A stretch of DNA of 5,279 nucleotides, taken from an uncultured Candidatus Saccharibacteria bacterium. Its GTDB lineage: Bacteria > Patescibacteriota > Saccharimonadia > Saccharimonadales > Saccharimonadaceae. The position numbers and the translations under genes were made by a program. Below are positions 1 to 5,279 of this stretch, piece after piece (within the stretch, counting starts at the first letter, position 1; the number at the start of each line of letters is the position of its first letter). The stretch spans positions 1 to 5,279 of the forward strand of contig CALEKV010000170.1 of the NCBI GenBank assembly GCA_937902525.1, in the 5' to 3' direction. Under the pieces are notes generated by a model. The model saw only the letters and a program-made list of their open reading frames with translations. It was not told the origin of the DNA and searched no databases.

Positions 1-29
1 GTCCGCTGGGAGCCTGGCTGCAATCTATT

Positions 30-255
30 TCGAGCACTCCCTGAACGACGGCGAACCGTAGTTCGAGTTGACGTTGTCAGACCAGTTGGCGTTGAAGTTC
101 ACCTGACGGTTGTCATCCCAGCGGCTCAGGTACAACGAGTTCGACCAGTCGGAAAAGCGCAATCTGCCCTCTATGATCACCGAATCCAGGCGCATCCAGA
201 TTCTGTAGTTTATACGAAACCTATACGTTTCCAGCAGATCGCACGGAGTGCTCGA
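30..255. repeat. 11-bp inverted repeat bracketing the TR
   Basis: TCGAGCACTCC at 30-40 is the exact reverse complement of GGAGTGCTCGA at 245-255. The left arm overlaps the first seven bases of the TR (its IMH end); the right arm lies about 90 bp beyond the other TR end. In a minus-strand transcript the two arms would pair and present the TR as a closed loop of about 200 nt. A role in TR RNA folding or cDNA priming is inference. Confidence 0.7.
34..154 (-). repeat. DGR template repeat (TR)
   Basis: This 121-bp stretch aligns without gaps to 530-650. In coding sense (minus strand) it has 26 adenines, 16 of which are substituted in the VR; none of the other 95 positions differs. Eight AAC codons are present (61-63, 67-69, 73-75, 85-87, 91-93, 97-99, 109-111, 139-141), the codon typical of DGR templates because mutating its two adenines can reach many residues without making a stop. 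The 27 bases at the 3' end (34-60) are identical in both copies and are the candidate initiation-of-mutagenic-homology (IMH) segment. Homology stops abruptly at 33/34 and 154/155. It is read as the RNA template rather than as protein. Confidence 0.96.
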
Positions 256-374
256 TATTTTGCCTGCGCGCTTAATTCATTCGTAAACAAACTAATTCAG
301 TCAGTTTCAAAACACGGGATAAACGACATAGATCCGTAAACCTATATACACGAGCTTATCCACATTAATTTTAG

Positions 375-407
375 CAAAAAATTAAAACGCCTCTGCTAAA
401 GCAGAGG
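375..407 (-). terminator. Rho-independent terminator downstream of DGR target
   Basis: A perfect 7-bp stem (CCTCTGC 390-396, GCAGAGG 401-407) encloses a 4-nt loop. Read on the minus strand it is followed by a T-rich stretch (387-375), the arrangement of an intrinsic terminator. It lies about 115 bases past the target stop and would separate the target mRNA from the TR. A 7-bp stem with a 4-nt loop near the VR also resembles hairpins that some DGRs need for target recognition, so a double role is possible. Confidence 0.72.
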
Positions 408-441
408 AACGGCTAAGGGACAGATCAAAAAGTGAGTGCGA

Positions 442-506
442 GGTATCCGGAAGGGTAAAAGGTTTCAAGGACAAAAGTCCAAGAATCCAATACCCCTCCG
501 GATACC
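442..506 (-). repeat. Nested inverted repeat just downstream of the VR
   Basis: Bases 442-457 pair with 491-506 as a 16-bp stem with one mismatch (452/496). Inside it a second hairpin, GGAC-AAAA-GTCC at 469-480, forms the tip. The structure begins 15 bp after the target stop codon and 24 bp from the IMH end of the VR, on the side where DGRs such as that of Bordetella phage BPP-1 carry a hairpin or cruciform that helps target recognition. That role here is inference. The long stem has no T-tract after it, so it is a poor terminator. Confidence 0.65.
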
Positions 507-520
507 AAGGAACCAAGGTT

Positions 521-1234
521 CTAGTTCTTGCACTCCCTGAACGACGGCGAACCGTAGCGCGAGTAGACGCGGCCAGACCAGCTGGCGAGGAAGAGCACCA
601 GACGGTAGACATCCCAGCGGCCCAGGTACAACGAGTGCGACCAGTCGGAATCGTACTTGAACTGCAGGCCACCGAGCCACGGGTAGAGGCTCTGCTTGCC
701 ATCCCAGCTGGTTGCCCAGGTCGGGAACAGCAGGTTGGCCACCAGGCCTTCGACACCAGCAAGCCGAACGTTGTCCTGCTTAGCCAACTCGAGCGCCTGT
801 TCCGGGGACTTGCCCTGGTAGGCGTTCGGGTTGAACACCACCCAGCGGATGCCGGGGGTGTAGGTGCAGCCGGACGCCTGACGGATCAGCTTGGGCTGCG
901 CCTTGAGCTCGTCCCAGCGCCACTTAGTGTAGCCGGTCGGGGCCTGCGAGCAGTTCCACAGCTCGTCAATGGTGCGGTACAGTCCACGCTTCCTACCCTG
1001 ATCGGGGAGGTAGACGCAGAGCAAGAGCACCTCACCATCACGCAGGTTGACGTTCGTCGGCGCGGACGGAAAGTCCGAGTCCTCGAAACCCCAGTTGCGC
1101 TGGTCATTGAGCTGGTGGACGCGCTCGAGCTGCTGCCTGGGCGAGACGTACCACGCGGGCTGGTATTCCTGGTGGGAGGTAGCGAGCTGATCACTCAACT
1201 GGCCCTTGAGGGTGTTGTCCAACTTGGTAGCCAT
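521..1234 (-). CDS. DGR target protein with C-terminal variable domain
   Basis: This 237-residue protein is not one I recognise by name. Residues 196-235 are the DGR variable repeat. Twelve positions differ from the template (200, 205, 209, 210, 212, 214, 216, 218, 221, 222, 224, 226), interleaved with an invariant aromatic scaffold (W198, Y203, W207, F215, W219, Y227) and an invariant end GSPSFREC. Known DGR targets usually carry variable residues on a C-type-lectin-like fold; that fold is inferred here. The N-terminal half is hydrophilic; residues about 60-80 include a hydrophobic strand (DGEVLLLCVYLP). No signal peptide or membrane segment is visible, so its location is unclear. I chose ATG at 1232-1234 because a purine-rich AGAAGAGAG precedes it at suitable spacing; the frame stays open to 1354, but the extra 40 residues look like leader. 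GC content is much higher than in neighbours, with G/C-ending codons. Confidence 0.9.
   Translation of the reverse strand: MATKLDNTLKGQLSDQLATSHQEYQPAWYVSPRQQLERVHQLNDQRNWGFEDSDFPSAPTNVNLRDGEVLLLCVYLPDQGRKRGLYRTIDELWNCSQAPTGYTKWRWDELKAQPKLIRQASGCTYTPGIRWVVFNPNAYQGKSPEQALELAKQDNVRLAGVEGLVANLLFPTWATSWDGKQSLYPWLGGLQFKYDSDWSHSLYLGRWDVYRLVLFLASWSGRVYSRYGSPSFRECKN
530..650 (-). repeat. DGR variable repeat (VR)
   Basis: The 3' end of the target gene is identical to the TR at 105 of 121 positions. All 16 differences fall where the coding-sense TR has A, changed to G five times, C five times and T six times. The resulting replacements are Asn to His, Tyr (twice), Leu (twice), Ser and Arg (twice), plus Ser to Gly, Asp to Val, Gln to Leu and Asp to Gly. 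None is silent and none makes a stop. The segment 530-556 is unchanged and is the candidate IMH. Two codons (Lys, Asn) and TAG follow the VR outside the homology. Confidence 0.96.
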
Positions 1235-1438: not shown

Positions 1439-2242
1439 TTATAGCCCCGCCATCACTCCGTCATCCTCAAAGTCATCCCAATACTGCACCCATACTTTCT
1501 TTTTGCCAGTATTGAGGCGTTCTCGTGTAGTTGTGAATGTCTTAAAATCCATATATTTGCCGCCAACAAGGCGGTGTATTCGCTTCTCGGTACTCTTGTT
1601 GTCACAAACGAGCAGTAGTGTCGGATAGTTATCCTCAAAGCCCCAGTCTTCGTCGTTATTCTCATCAAACCATTCTTGGTGAGCGTTAATACGTTTCTTA
1701 ATCATCCATGTAAAGGTGCCTGCTGCAATGACCTCCAGCTGGAAGTGTATGGGCTGTCCATTTTCGTCTTTACGATTTGTCCGTATATATAGGTCGGGAA
1801 GCGGGCGTATGAACTCCTCAAATTGGTCTATCTCTGATTTTGCGAAGATAGCGTACCTACCGTCGTATTGTTTGTGAAGCTGCAAACATAGTTTGGCTAC
1901 GTCCAAACTATGGTCTACCAGCTGTAAGCTGGAAGATCTATTTTTGTATTGGTTCCGAATCACTGCATCGGTAAAGTAGCCTGGACTGTGATCGCGAACA
2001 ACACGGAGTCCTTTACCGGTCAGTGAGTAAACTGCTTGGCGTCCGAGTAACTTCCATCTTTTCTCGTAGCGTTTCTGGAGATAGCCTTGATCCTCTAAAA
2101 TGGCCAACCGTTCATACATCGTTGCTTTACTTTTATCTCGCCACTGACTGAGTAATTCTACTGTTGCAAATCTAAACTTAGCCAGTAGACTCAATAACTT
2201 AATCTGACCTACACTTAGTTGCTTTCTATGCTTGCTATCCAT
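1439..2242 (-). CDS. Replication-relaxation family-like protein
   Basis: This 267-residue protein has an N-terminal winged helix (about residues 10-85) with the pattern of an R-x-L-x-x-L-x-x-x-GYL recognition region and a following LTxxG turn. A middle segment HSLDVAKLCLQL (111-122) and a core with RPLPDLYIR (146-154) and HFQLEV (166-171) come next. The spacing of PD (149-150) and E170 recalls a PD-(D/E)xK-like fold, which is inference. This layout fits the replication-relaxation family (Pfam Replic_Relax), DNA-binding proteins first tied to plasmid replication or relaxation and common in small-genome bacteria; the precise role is unknown. ATG at 2240-2242 is preceded by GGTGA with a 9-nt gap, which supports this start. 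The C-terminus is acidic. It could instead be another winged-helix regulator. Confidence 0.68.
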   Translation of the reverse strand: MDSKHRKQLSVGQIKLLSLLAKFRFATVELLSQWRDKSKATMYERLAILEDQGYLQKRYEKRWKLLGRQAVYSLTGKGLRVVRDHSPGYFTDAVIRNQYKNRSSSLQLVDHSLDVAKLCLQLHKQYDGRYAIFAKSEIDQFEEFIRPLPDLYIRTNRKDENGQPIHFQLEVIAAGTFTWMIKKRINAHQEWFDENNDEDWGFEDNYPTLLLVCDNKSTEKRIHRLVGGKYMDFKTFTTTRERLNTGKKKVWVQYWDDFEDDGVMAGL

Positions 2243-2433: not shown

Positions 2434-2649
2434 ATGTCAAAAGACCCACTTAGCGACGAAGAGCGCCAAGCATTTATAGATAACCTGCCGGACGATCAAA
2501 AGAACGAAAACGCCGAGCAGATATTTAGTGATGCTATTGCACGCGCCGCGCAGCCGAAGCAATCAGCTCAGGAAAAATCGACAGAAGCTGACGACGGTTA
2601 TACCGATACACAAACTCATTCAGGTACAACTGAAGATACTTCGCGCTAA
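2434..2649 (+). CDS. Small hydrophilic acidic protein, function unknown
   Basis: The 71-residue product begins MSKDPLSDEERQAFID and is rich in Asp, Glu, Gln, Ser and Thr. It has no membrane segment or recognisable domain; residues about 5-45 could be helical and the tail looks disordered. I prefer ATG 2434 over the in-frame ATG at 2377 because a -10 box sits six bases upstream of it and the extra 19 residues look like translated promoter. Its last 116 bp overlap the end of the convergent transposase gene in a different frame. The C-terminal half may therefore be antisense sequence from the insertion sequence, making this a truncated or chimeric gene. I do not recognise a family. Confidence 0.5.
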   Translation: MSKDPLSDEERQAFIDNLPDDQKNENAEQIFSDAIARAAQPKQSAQEKSTEADDGYTDTQTHSGTTEDTSR

Positions 2650-3397
2650 CACAGTGATACGTGCCATCAACTGAGCGTTTCAGTTGCGACCAAAAGCCTT
2701 CAATCGTATTCGTATGCACGATGCCGCGGCCGTATTCGCCGACACTGTGATTAACCGAATCATGATAATAGCCAATCCGGTGTAGTGTGCGATAGACCTG
2801 TGCTTGATCGCTGTATATGACTGTGCCGGGTGCGATGCTGTCGCGCAAACGTGGCAGTAATATTCGGGCTCCAGCACTTTTAACGTGCTCCGCCTCAACG
2901 CGGCCACCACGCTCAACCATGCCGAAAACAACTTCCTTGTTAACAAAGCCTTTGCCGGCACCCTTATTACGACCACCGACATAGGTTTCATCCGTTTCAA
3001 CCACGCCAGAGAGCGGGCCGTTGCCACCGTGCACCATGAGTGCACGGACTTGCTTGGCAATGCGCCAGGCCGTTTTGTACGTTACGCCTAGGTGGCGCTC
3101 AACTTCTTTCGCAGATACACCGTTCTTGGATACCGAGAAGAGGTAGATGATATAGTACCAGTCACGGAGTGAGGTAGATGACTTATGAAAGATAGTGCCG
3201 CCGAGCGGGTGTATCTGATTACCGCAGTCTTTGCACTCGAAACATTTACGGCTACGAACGCGGTAGTAACTGGGTTCTACAACGCCACACTTCGGACAGG
3301 CAGGCATGGTGCCATAGGCTTGCTGGAATATATAGTCGAGACAGGTAGTATCGTCTGGGAACAATTCATTGAAGCGTTTGACGGTTACCTTTTCCAT
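2534..3397 (-). CDS. IS1595/ISXO2-type transposase
   Basis: This 287-residue protein catalyses DNA-strand transfer for an insertion sequence. An N-terminal zinc ribbon has C34-x2-C37 and C55-x2-C58. A helix-turn-helix follows (about 92-115, GVSAKEVERHLGVTYKTAWR). The ISXO2-type catalytic domain shows ETDETYVGG with D136, IYSDQ with D197, and HTNTIEGFW with N230 and E233, followed by K240. The end, YRYNRR and a short helix, is usual for the family, as is the length, so the enzyme looks intact. The ATG at 3395-3397 has a consensus promoter and no ribosome binding site, so it is probably leaderless. No terminal inverted repeats or target duplication could be found by eye, so element borders are not given; it may be degenerate or domesticated. 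Confidence 0.9.
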   Translation of the reverse strand: MEKVTVKRFNELFPDDTTCLDYIFQQAYGTMPACPKCGVVEPSYYRVRSRKCFECKDCGNQIHPLGGTIFHKSSTSLRDWYYIIYLFSVSKNGVSAKEVERHLGVTYKTAWRIAKQVRALMVHGGNGPLSGVVETDETYVGGRNKGAGKGFVNKEVVFGMVERGGRVEAEHVKSAGARILLPRLRDSIAPGTVIYSDQAQVYRTLHRIGYYHDSVNHSVGEYGRGIVHTNTIEGFWSQLKRSVDGTYHCVSAKYLQLYLNEFVYRYNRRQLLSIFPELIASAARRVQ

Positions 3398-3403
3398 ACT
3401 TTT

Positions 3404-3432
3404 AGTGTATTACAGAGGTTACATGTTGTCAA
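3404..3432 (-). promoter_or_regulatory. Consensus leaderless promoter of the transposase
   Basis: On the minus strand a perfect TTGACA (3432-3427) is followed by a 17-bp spacer and TACACT (3409-3404). The -10 ends six bases before the ATG, so the transcript should start at the start codon itself. No Shine-Dalgarno sequence is present. Confidence 0.78.
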
Positions 3433-3454
3433 GGGATAATCGGCTAGTTTAGGC

Positions 3455-3502: not shown

Positions 3503-5279
3503 CTAGTAGCTGGTGTCGCGGTGGTTGAAGTGAGGCTCGACTGTTTCGGTATCAGGCACTTGTTTTGGCGGAAACTTGATGTTAGTCGGTTTTAGCGGCA
3601 ACAACGGCTTATTAAAATGTTGCGGCCTTGGCTGCGTGGTGGGCTGGTTGGCCTGCGTATTTGGTTTTTGAGCTCCACCGACTTCGTTCACTACCGGAAT
3701 GACAATTGGCGTGCGGCGCGTTTGGTCGAACAAAATGTGCGTGATTTCGTCTTTTAGTTCTTTTTTAACGACATCTAAATCATACTTGCCGCTAAAGCTG
3801 CGGGCGGCTTTTTGCTTTAGGTAAGCCCTAATCATACCCATCAGTTCTTCGCTATCACGCAGGTAAATAAAACCGCGACTAATGATGTCAGGACTAGTTA
3901 GCAAGCGCCCAGTGCCACGCTGGATAGTCAGCACCACCACAAACATACCTTCTTGGCTCATGTGGATACGGTCTTTTAGCACCACCTCGCTCACCACGGC
4001 GCCAGCATCGTCATACATAATACCGCCAACTTGCACGCGACCAACTTTTTTAGCGCCATTGTGGTCGATTTCAATCACATCACCAGCATCGCAGACAAAA
4101 ATATTTTTCTGCGGGATGCCACATTCTTTTTCGGCAAGTTCGGCATTGTGGACTAACATGTGAAACTCACCGTGGTTTGGCAAATAGTATGTTGGGTGTA
4201 CAGCATTGATAACTCGGACGTGGTCTTCATAGTAACCGTGGCCGCTTAAGTGCAGCGGGCCAATGCCGGTCAAGTGGGTTTTGCCGTTTTGTATAACACT
4301 ACTGCCTTCGCGCATTAGACCATCAACAGTACGCACGACATACTTTTCGTTACCTGGAATTGGGTTACTGCTAAACACCACCACGTCAGTATTTTTAATT
4401 TTGATATATTTATGAGCACCCGTGGCCATGCGATTAAGCACAGCACTAAACTCGCCCTGACTGCCCGTACAGACAATCGTTACCTGACTATCAGGCAGCT
4501 TGATGATATCTTCCATTTTTACCACGGTGTCTTTAGGGACTTTAATGGTGCCCGTGCGGAGCGCCACCTCAAGGTTTTGAATCATGCTAAAGCCGGCAAA
4601 CGCCACCTTACGACCGTGCCGGTGGGCCTCTTCCAAGATTAACTGCATGCGGAGTAGCTGGCTGCTAAAGCTACTGATAATGACGCGGCCGTTAGAGCAC
4701 TTGTCCATCACCTCGCCCATGCTGTGCTGGATGTCGAATTCACCGTGCGAATGCGTGCCCTCCGACTCACAGTTGGTGCTTTCGTTTAGGAACATCAAAA
4801 AACCTTCTTTTTGCTGGATTTCAGTAATGCGATTAAAGTCGAACTTTTTGCCGTCAATCGGGGTGTCTTCGATACGCCAGTCGCCACTGAACAATAAGTT
4901 TCCTACCGGTGTGCGTATAACCACGGCGGCGGCATCGGGAATACTGTGATTAACCCTTATAAACTCAGCGCTAAAGCTATCGCATAGCTGCACTTGGTCG
5001 TGATTTTCCGGGTTCATTTCGTGGTAATCGGGTTCGATTGTACTGTCACCTTCTTCATATGTGCGCTGCAACATACCGATGGTAAACTTGGTGGCAAACA
5101 CTGGCGCCGGGATTTGTGGGAACAGGTGACGGAACGCTCCAATGTGGTCAAGGTGTCCGTGCGTAAACAAGTGAGCACGAATTTTATGGCGGTTTTCAAA
5201 CAAATATGTGATATCTGGCGTAATGTAGTTAATTCCCGGGTAGTCACCGCCTGGGAACAAAAAGCCCATGTCAACAATA
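3503..5279 (-). CDS. rnj: Ribonuclease J (5'-truncated by window edge)
   Basis: RNase J is a zinc-dependent metallo-beta-lactamase/beta-CASP ribonuclease with endonuclease and 5'-3' exonuclease activity in mRNA turnover and rRNA processing. About 591 residues are visible; the frame stays open through the edge (IVDMGFLFPG), so the ATG at 5267-5269 is internal and the first tens of residues are missing. Counting from that Met: the metal-binding HGHLDH motif is at 37-42, a later histidine in VNHSIPDA and the aspartate in FSGDWRIE complete metallo-beta-lactamase motifs, and the beta-CASP part has CTGSQGE, LSGHGYYEDH and PNHGEFHM. A C-terminal domain of about 100 residues follows. The last ~55 residues are rich in Pro, Gln, Asn and Thr and look disordered, longer than the core needs. 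A TAG ends the gene; the promoter lies outside the window. Confidence 0.95.
   Translation of the reverse strand, partial: IVDMGFLFPGGDYPGINYITPDITYLFENRHKIRAHLFTHGHLDHIGAFRHLFPQIPAPVFATKFTIGMLQRTYEEGDSTIEPDYHEMNPENHDQVQLCDSFSAEFIRVNHSIPDAAAVVIRTPVGNLLFSGDWRIEDTPIDGKKFDFNRITEIQQKEGFLMFLNESTNCESEGTHSHGEFDIQHSMGEVMDKCSNGRVIISSFSSQLLRMQLILEEAHRHGRKVAFAGFSMIQNLEVALRTGTIKVPKDTVVKMEDIIKLPDSQVTIVCTGSQGEFSAVLNRMATGAHKYIKIKNTDVVVFSSNPIPGNEKYVVRTVDGLMREGSSVIQNGKTHLTGIGPLHLSGHGYYEDHVRVINAVHPTYYLPNHGEFHMLVHNAELAEKECGIPQKNIFVCDAGDVIEIDHNGAKKVGRVQVGGIMYDDAGAVVSEVVLKDRIHMSQEGMFVVVLTIQRGTGRLLTSPDIISRGFIYLRDSEELMGMIRAYLKQKAARSFSGKYDLDVVKKELKDEITHILFDQTRRTPIVIPVVNEVGGAQKPNTQANQPTTQPRPQHFNKPLLPLKPTNIKFPPKQVPDTETVEPHFNHRDTSY

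Follow-up and report, generated by a model that had tools for sequence, protein, structure and literature searches.

In diversity-generating retroelements (DGRs), the variable region (VR) forms the last part of a protein gene and frequently falls within a C-type lectin fold. In the DGR of Bordetella phage BPP-1, the VR lies at the 3' end and is followed by a stem-loop. The 3' ends of the VR and of the template repeat (TR) differ in some DGRs (IMH versus IMH*), a feature that membership does not require; in the work on BPP-1 this difference reportedly guards the TR against overwriting. The accessory protein Avd is missing from some DGRs. DGRs alter proteins, and none is known to be mobile by itself. 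Transposons of the IS1595 family that carry passenger genes are known, with an ISXO2-like transposase bearing a zinc ribbon and with short terminal inverted repeats (TIRs), and an 8-bp target-site duplication (TSD) is a feature of this family.

The locus described here can be compared with both systems; by the window we mean the whole stretch of 5,279 nucleotides that was analysed. It resembles the BPP-1 DGR in its 3'-terminal VR followed by a stem-loop and in the family of the reverse transcriptase (RT), the RT of the related locus L001 having its best match in 8ub7, which we take to be the BPP-1 DGR RT. Unlike in BPP-1, the vehicle is another one, an avd gene was recognised neither in the window nor in the interval between TR and RT of L001, and pairing is predicted between a template leader and the 3' end of the TR. 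The features in common with the IS1595 family are 8-bp TSDs on nine elements (one of them matching at 7/8), short TIRs, and an ISXO2-like transposase with a zinc ribbon; unlike the known passengers of this family, the cargo here is a whole DGR together with a Replic_Relax winged-helix gene.

DGRs of Patescibacteria have already been published (PMC8144416, PMC10221324). They are enriched in CPR/Patescibacteria (PMC8144416), and the available part of that paper raises their spread on mobile elements as a hypothesis alone. The Patescibacteria DGRs reported there (clade 2, Roux et al. 2021, PMC8144416) are like the window in their gene-end VR, nearby TR, and adenine bias, and like L001 in their DGR-type RT and host group; unlike the DGRs in the available part of that text, the cassette here appears to travel within a transposon that TIRs and TSDs delimit. 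In 2012, the DiGReF paper (PMC3521204) had proposed that DGRs hitchhike on phages, plasmids, and transposons, one example being a Vibrio DGR near Tn7-type sequences. That proposal, in the part of the text at hand, was made from vicinity, whereas here relatives supply both delimited ends and the target duplications, the transposons belong to the IS1595 family, and the RTs come from three lineages. Among the matches listed, as judged by title and the start of the abstract, none was a published DGR delimited inside an IS1595-type transposon. On this limited basis, the new aspect would be a DGR whose IS1595-type carrier has been delimited; the occurrence of DGRs in Patescibacteria and their proximity to transposons were already known.

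We read the window as holding the target gene, VR, and TR of a DGR that is likely the cargo of an IS1595-family transposon, with the RT and the far transposon end predicted to the left of base 1, and we give this reading a probability of roughly 0.86. The features are as follows.

27-43, minus strand: arm at the TR 3' end, predicted to pair with the leader element 242-258
34-154, minus strand: TR, with 16/16 differences from the VR at TR adenines; collinear with the L001 TR at 11018-11137
242-258, minus strand: leader element 5' of the TR, conserved, 88% complementary to the TR 3' end (27-43)
390-407, minus strand: terminator-like hairpin in the gap between target gene and TR; stem sequence also in L001 and L030
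442-506, minus strand: stem-loop directly downstream of the VR (DNA fold z -7.16)
521-1234, minus strand: target gene, 237 aa, predicted C-type-lectin-like fold
530-650, minus strand: VR, the 3' end of the target gene
1439-2242, minus strand: Replic_Relax winged-helix protein, a transposon accessory gene (PF13814, E 6.1e-8)
2534-3397, minus strand: IS1595-family (ISXO2-like) transposase, 287 aa (PF12762, 3.3e-41; PF12760, 2.1e-10; NF033547, 1.2e-57)
3422-3444, minus strand: transposon end on the transposase side (TIR), at the edge of homology with L001
3445-3452, no strand: expected copy of the 8-bp TSD, placed according to where the TSD lies in L001 and in seven further elements; its partner copy would fall outside the window
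3503-5279, minus strand: flanking host gene, ribonuclease J (PF22505, PF17770, TIGR00649)

Repeats, RNA signals, and the target gene

The TR and the VR were recomputed from the window. They aligned over 121 bases without gaps, with 16 differences, all of them at TR adenines in the coding (minus) sense, as a sequence-only reading of this DNA had claimed for the copy at 34-154. The TR contains 26 A, 35 C, 33 G, and 27 T, and none of its 95 non-A positions differed from the VR. Opposite the changed adenines, the VR had T six times, C five times, and G five times, the same 5/5/6 spread over G, C, and T as given earlier; the counts of altered in-frame AAC codons (8/8) and of nonsynonymous changes among the changed codons (12/12) were likewise reproduced. 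For 16 positions drawn from 121 without replacement, the exact odds of hitting adenines alone are 1.5e-13. The earlier figure of about 2e-11 equals (26/121)^16 and is conservative compared with the exact one. An independent repeat search recovered the same pair in a slightly wider frame (24-154 and 520-650). The VR ends the open reading frame at 521-1234 and the TR sits downstream of this gene, in agreement with the coordinates and the direction, with 34-154 as the template, that the sequence-only reading had assigned. Its interpretation as a DGR also stood, supported by adenine-restricted TR/VR pairs in five relatives and by the RT that follows the TR in L001. That the window holds part of a DGR is therefore supported.

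Several signals around the repeats were examined. The stem-loop at 442-506 was matched by none of 200 shuffles, and a stem-loop after the VR was predicted in all six loci compared, including the window. A hairpin or cruciform just after the VR is required in a subset of DGRs (PMC3521204). The TR and VR of the window share the 3' end GAGTGC and are without the 3'-end difference of IMH versus IMH*; near this end, L001 and L030 have C in the TR and G in the VR, and the window has G in both. Since the window TR does not differ from the VR in this way, the TR itself might be open to overwriting; the stem-loop after the VR alone may be able to protect it. For terminator-like hairpins the signal was weak by itself, with one found in the window and 1.3 expected in shuffles. 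The leader element lies about 90 bases upstream of the TR, and its core, CGAGCACTCC, was the same in five of six loci; in L027 one base had changed, and the TR arm carried the corresponding change. The pairing of leader and TR arm contains one C-C mismatch in five relatives and a C-G pair in the window. The single compensatory change suggests that the leader element and the TR 3' end could form the closing stem of the template RNA. No Rfam match at gathering thresholds and no tRNA were found in the window.

The target protein had no match in Pfam, NCBIfam, PHROGs, or PADLOC at the cut-offs used and no significant Foldseek match in the PDB, and no relative of the target gene was found in viral contigs, searched as a single protein and as an alignment. 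Of 392 genomes searched from the same class, 25 contained relatives of the target. Between the window protein and its near-identical homologue P0001, 11 differences fell among the 42 residues that run from the VR to the C terminus, and 2 among the 195 aligned residues that precede the VR (Fisher p 9.7e-8). One of the 11 VR differences (S/P) fell outside the codons with an A in the window TR, and one in-frame 40-residue stretch of P0001 was absent from the window target. The N terminus of the window target was missing much of a region present in other homologues.

L001 and other DGR relatives

A contig scan with the homologue alignment gave two loci, one of them L001; all relatives come from draft genomes or MAG contigs, and they suggest that the host of the window is a patescibacterium. 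L002, a distant homologue with no DGR-like repeat pair, was rejected as a related DGR. L001, from a Patescibacteria MAG, was the closest fetched locus and is collinear with the window, in the order IS1595 transposase (7669-8529), Replic_Relax gene (8821-9624), target (9824-10636), TR (11018-11137), and RT. The RT is an open frame at 11448-12509 and starts 310 bases beyond the TR. It had the motifs GxxxSQ and YCDD, a match to RVT_1 (9.4e-23), and, when compared by sequence with solved structures, a best match to 8ub7 (E 1.3e-43), against 9.9e-23 for a group II intron RT. The SQ dipeptide is characteristic of DGR RTs (PMC3521204). Window bases 1-33 aligned with the stretch of L001 past its TR, and the window stops 33 bases beyond the TR. 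Because the collinear L001 has its RT after the TR, the RT of the window itself would lie left of base 1.

The adenine bias was found again in relatives. Differences between TR and VR were at TR adenines in 10 of 11 cases in L001 (the 11th being the C in the TR and G in the VR near the 3' end), 11/12 in L027, 16/16 in L029, 14/15 in L030, and 19/19 in L040; no adenine-restricted TR/VR pair was found in L034. The closest RTs were those of L027, L029, L030, and L034, at 68 to 72% identity. Avd-like genes below curated cut-offs were seen in L090 and near a second RT in the genome of L001. This second RT, at L004, has the GxxxSQ motif, and its neighbouring Avd-like gene might supply Avd in trans. 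At L040 (10560-11647) and L099 (14103-15121), the RT match was split over two frames, either recently broken or a sequencing error, and the TR/VR differences were all at adenines despite the split (19/19 and 14/14). One genome, G311, had three RT copies (L100, L101, and L134) that were 80 to 84% identical to the RT of L087, each with its own TR/VR pair (15/16, 23/25, and 23/24 differences at A); all three lie near contig starts and perhaps reflect multiplication within one genome. When tried as transposons, these three loci gave no convincing ends.

IS1595-type transposons and their cargo

Going upstream from the DGR in the window, the Replic_Relax gene is followed by the IS1595 transposase and then by an end at 3444-3422 beside the RNase J gene. 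The transposase frame is intact, and its product is ISXO2-like with a zinc ribbon. DNA similarity between the window and L001 set in abruptly at 3444, the transposase beginning 47 bases further on, and extended, interrupted by gaps, past the TR as far as the window's edge; the flanks on the far side of 3444 differed. The left-type end at 3422-3444 scored 24.8, and the next best place in the window scored 6.0. No right-type end scoring above 6.0 was found in the window; therefore, the element should run past base 1. A similar end 39 to 51 bases before the transposase was present in 16 of 23 distinct loci, including the window, and missing from the other seven. The Replic_Relax gene followed the IS1595 transposase in the window, L001, L086, L087, L088, L089, and L090. 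A small open reading frame at 2434-2649 (plus strand) overlaps the last part of the transposase gene in antisense, and the DNA of its first part was more than 90% identical with that of L001. Searches against phage records (window bases 1-1400) and plasmid records (the whole window) gave no match. An empty site was not found downstream of RNase J in four relatives, where the intergenic sequence is not conserved.

Candidates for the opposite end were scored together with the flanking 8-mers in 12 loci, eight of which gave delimited elements; a left end was missing from L092, and in L091, L051, and L052 none of the right ends was convincing. The TSD was 8/8 in L086, L087, L088, L089, L093, L094, and L095 and also in L090, and it was 7/8, with one mismatch, in L001. 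Between its matched TIRs, the L001 element (7622-12540) holds the transposase and the winged-helix gene together with the target, TR, and RT. Its right end, at 12516, starts six bases past the RT stop codon and scored 29.3 with a model made without L001, the runner-up in the locus scoring 9.4. As background for this score, the best value over 546,590 positions of 16 other loci was 13.4 (model without L087). The end scores and the TSD of L001 thus indicate that the DGR, the winged-helix gene, and the transposase are one element.

Two further examples carry a DGR. In L087, where the element lies at 3768-9556 (reverse-complement coordinates) within a perfect TSD, the Fib_succ_major (FISUMP) target is accompanied by a DGR-type RT and by a TR, and 19 of 20 TR/VR differences were at A. 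In L090, the element at 3568-11732 (reverse complement) has ends aligning at 18, the next unrelated candidate being at 4, and besides the transposase and the winged-helix gene it encodes the RT, a target of 667 aa, a sortase-like protein, and an Avd-like one (NF033474, E 3.6e-11, below its cut-off); 23 of 24 TR/VR differences were at A. The L090 element is flanked by what we take to be der and pth. In 15 of 19 other genomes der lay within about 1.1 kb upstream of pth (about 25 bases in five), and in 4 of 19 no der adjoined; the adjacency elsewhere is gene-order evidence for an insertion in L090. No IS1595 transposase was found at the pth locus in any of the 19 genomes fetched, out of 56 others with a match. 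The transposases of L001, L087, and L090 were 91%, 61%, and 40% identical to that of the window.

Other cargo was also seen. In L086 (9889-12531), the cargo includes an oligonucleotide cyclase that is CBASS-like, along with a 2TM effector; the L093 transposon carries a serpin gene (6878-8275; E 2.9e-109), and that of L088 a CdiA_C-domain protein. The L094 element is 1.4 kb long and that of L095 has no RT among its open reading frames; IS1595-type transposons therefore exist without a DGR. L096 had a left-type end scoring 20.1 and a right-type end scoring just 13.5, and it was not counted as a transposon.

RT lineages, alternatives, and significance

Forty regions were chosen by hand from 77 listed RT rows and added to 11 earlier loci. 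An RT match was present in 40 of these 51 stretches, and three of the 40 had an IS1595 transposase; none was found in the fetched stretches of L027, L029, L030, L034, and L040. L027, L029, L030, and L034 are the four DGR loci whose RTs are closest, and since none of them showed the transposase, the vehicle is not obligatory. In six other stretches, the winged-helix family occurred together with an RT, and all four that were checked adjoin a large serine recombinase. Two kinds of mobile element near DGRs thus seem to have the winged-helix family in common. At L030, L096, L097, and L099, a large serine recombinase and a Replic_Relax gene share the stretch with the DGR, perhaps as a second type of mobile element that carries DGRs in this group.

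An RT tree was built from 29 rows, namely, 28 of the 40 plus L004; L040 and L099, with their broken frames, and ten others were left out. The RTs of L001, L087, and L090 fell on three separate supported branches, with three label changes that were all forced by supported branches; DGRs were thus seemingly captured more than once. In a shuffle control of the tree, equal scatter was usual for three rows, and the label count taken alone is compatible with one gain and two losses. With that reservation, the tree supports a repeated capture of DGRs by IS1595-type transposons.

Could the DGR be a resident chromosomal cassette, with the IS1595 transposase and the winged-helix gene as an unrelated adjoining insertion? 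Most of the fetched DGR loci with related targets (L027, L029, L030, L034, and L040) lack the transposase in their stretches, L094 and L095 are such transposons free of a DGR or RT, and the far end falls outside the window, all of which suits this explanation. However, the interval between transposase and DGR in the window has no right-type end (best 6.0), the sole strong right end of L001 lies just past the RT, and the same arrangement is bounded by TSDs in L087 and L090; we consider a resident cassette quite improbable. An orphan DGR that kept its TR and VR, with the RT lost or broken and diversification stopped, is also unlikely. It would fit an RT outside the window, the split RT matches of L040 and L099, and the window TR without the single 3' base difference from the VR seen in L001 and L030, but a stopped system sits poorly with the complete lack of differences at the 95 non-adenine positions and with the VR of P0001, which was diversified differently while the rest of the protein remained near-identical.

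A third possibility is that a segment was simply duplicated and then changed by drift or positive selection; the window does contain two imperfect direct repeats. With 16/16 changes at TR adenines, at odds of 1.5e-13, and the same bias in five relatives, this explanation is refuted in practice and hardly deserves credence; the sequence-only reading had likewise judged ordinary duplication and drift unsuited. The reading of a DGR carried by an IS1595-family transposon is the one that we retain.

According to this reading, the TR would be transcribed and copied by the RT with random bases placed opposite adenines, and the cDNA would replace the VR, the stem-loop after the VR marking the recipient. 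The C terminus of the predicted C-type-lectin-like protein, in which 12 codons differ so far, would thus be varied, giving a receptor of changeable specificity. The whole unit, from the transposase through the winged-helix gene, target, and TR to the RT, would use its inverted repeats to move, leaving 8-bp target duplications, and would thereby take the cassette from one bacterial genome to another. In the window, adenine-only differences, the transposase, the winged-helix gene, and the near end were observed, and L001 provided both ends, the RT, and the TSD, with L087 and L090 as two more examples; for the window itself we infer the RT, the far end, activity, a ligand, and continued mobility of the unit.

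Published accounts, in the parts available, put the spread of DGRs down to nearby phages, plasmids, and transposons. An element that is short, has defined ends, and combines an uninterrupted transposase with a DGR is a concrete, testable vehicle. If the reading is true, three RT lineages on one transposon family imply recurrent capture. We lean, with fair but clearly lesser assurance than for the window itself, towards the view that IS1595-type elements with a Replic_Relax gene are a general vehicle in Patescibacteria, which would have captured complete DGRs at least three separate times, have sister elements with CBASS, serpin, or CdiA_C cargo, and spread self-diversifying receptors. A transposon vehicle of this kind may help to explain the enrichment of DGRs in CPR/Patescibacteria.
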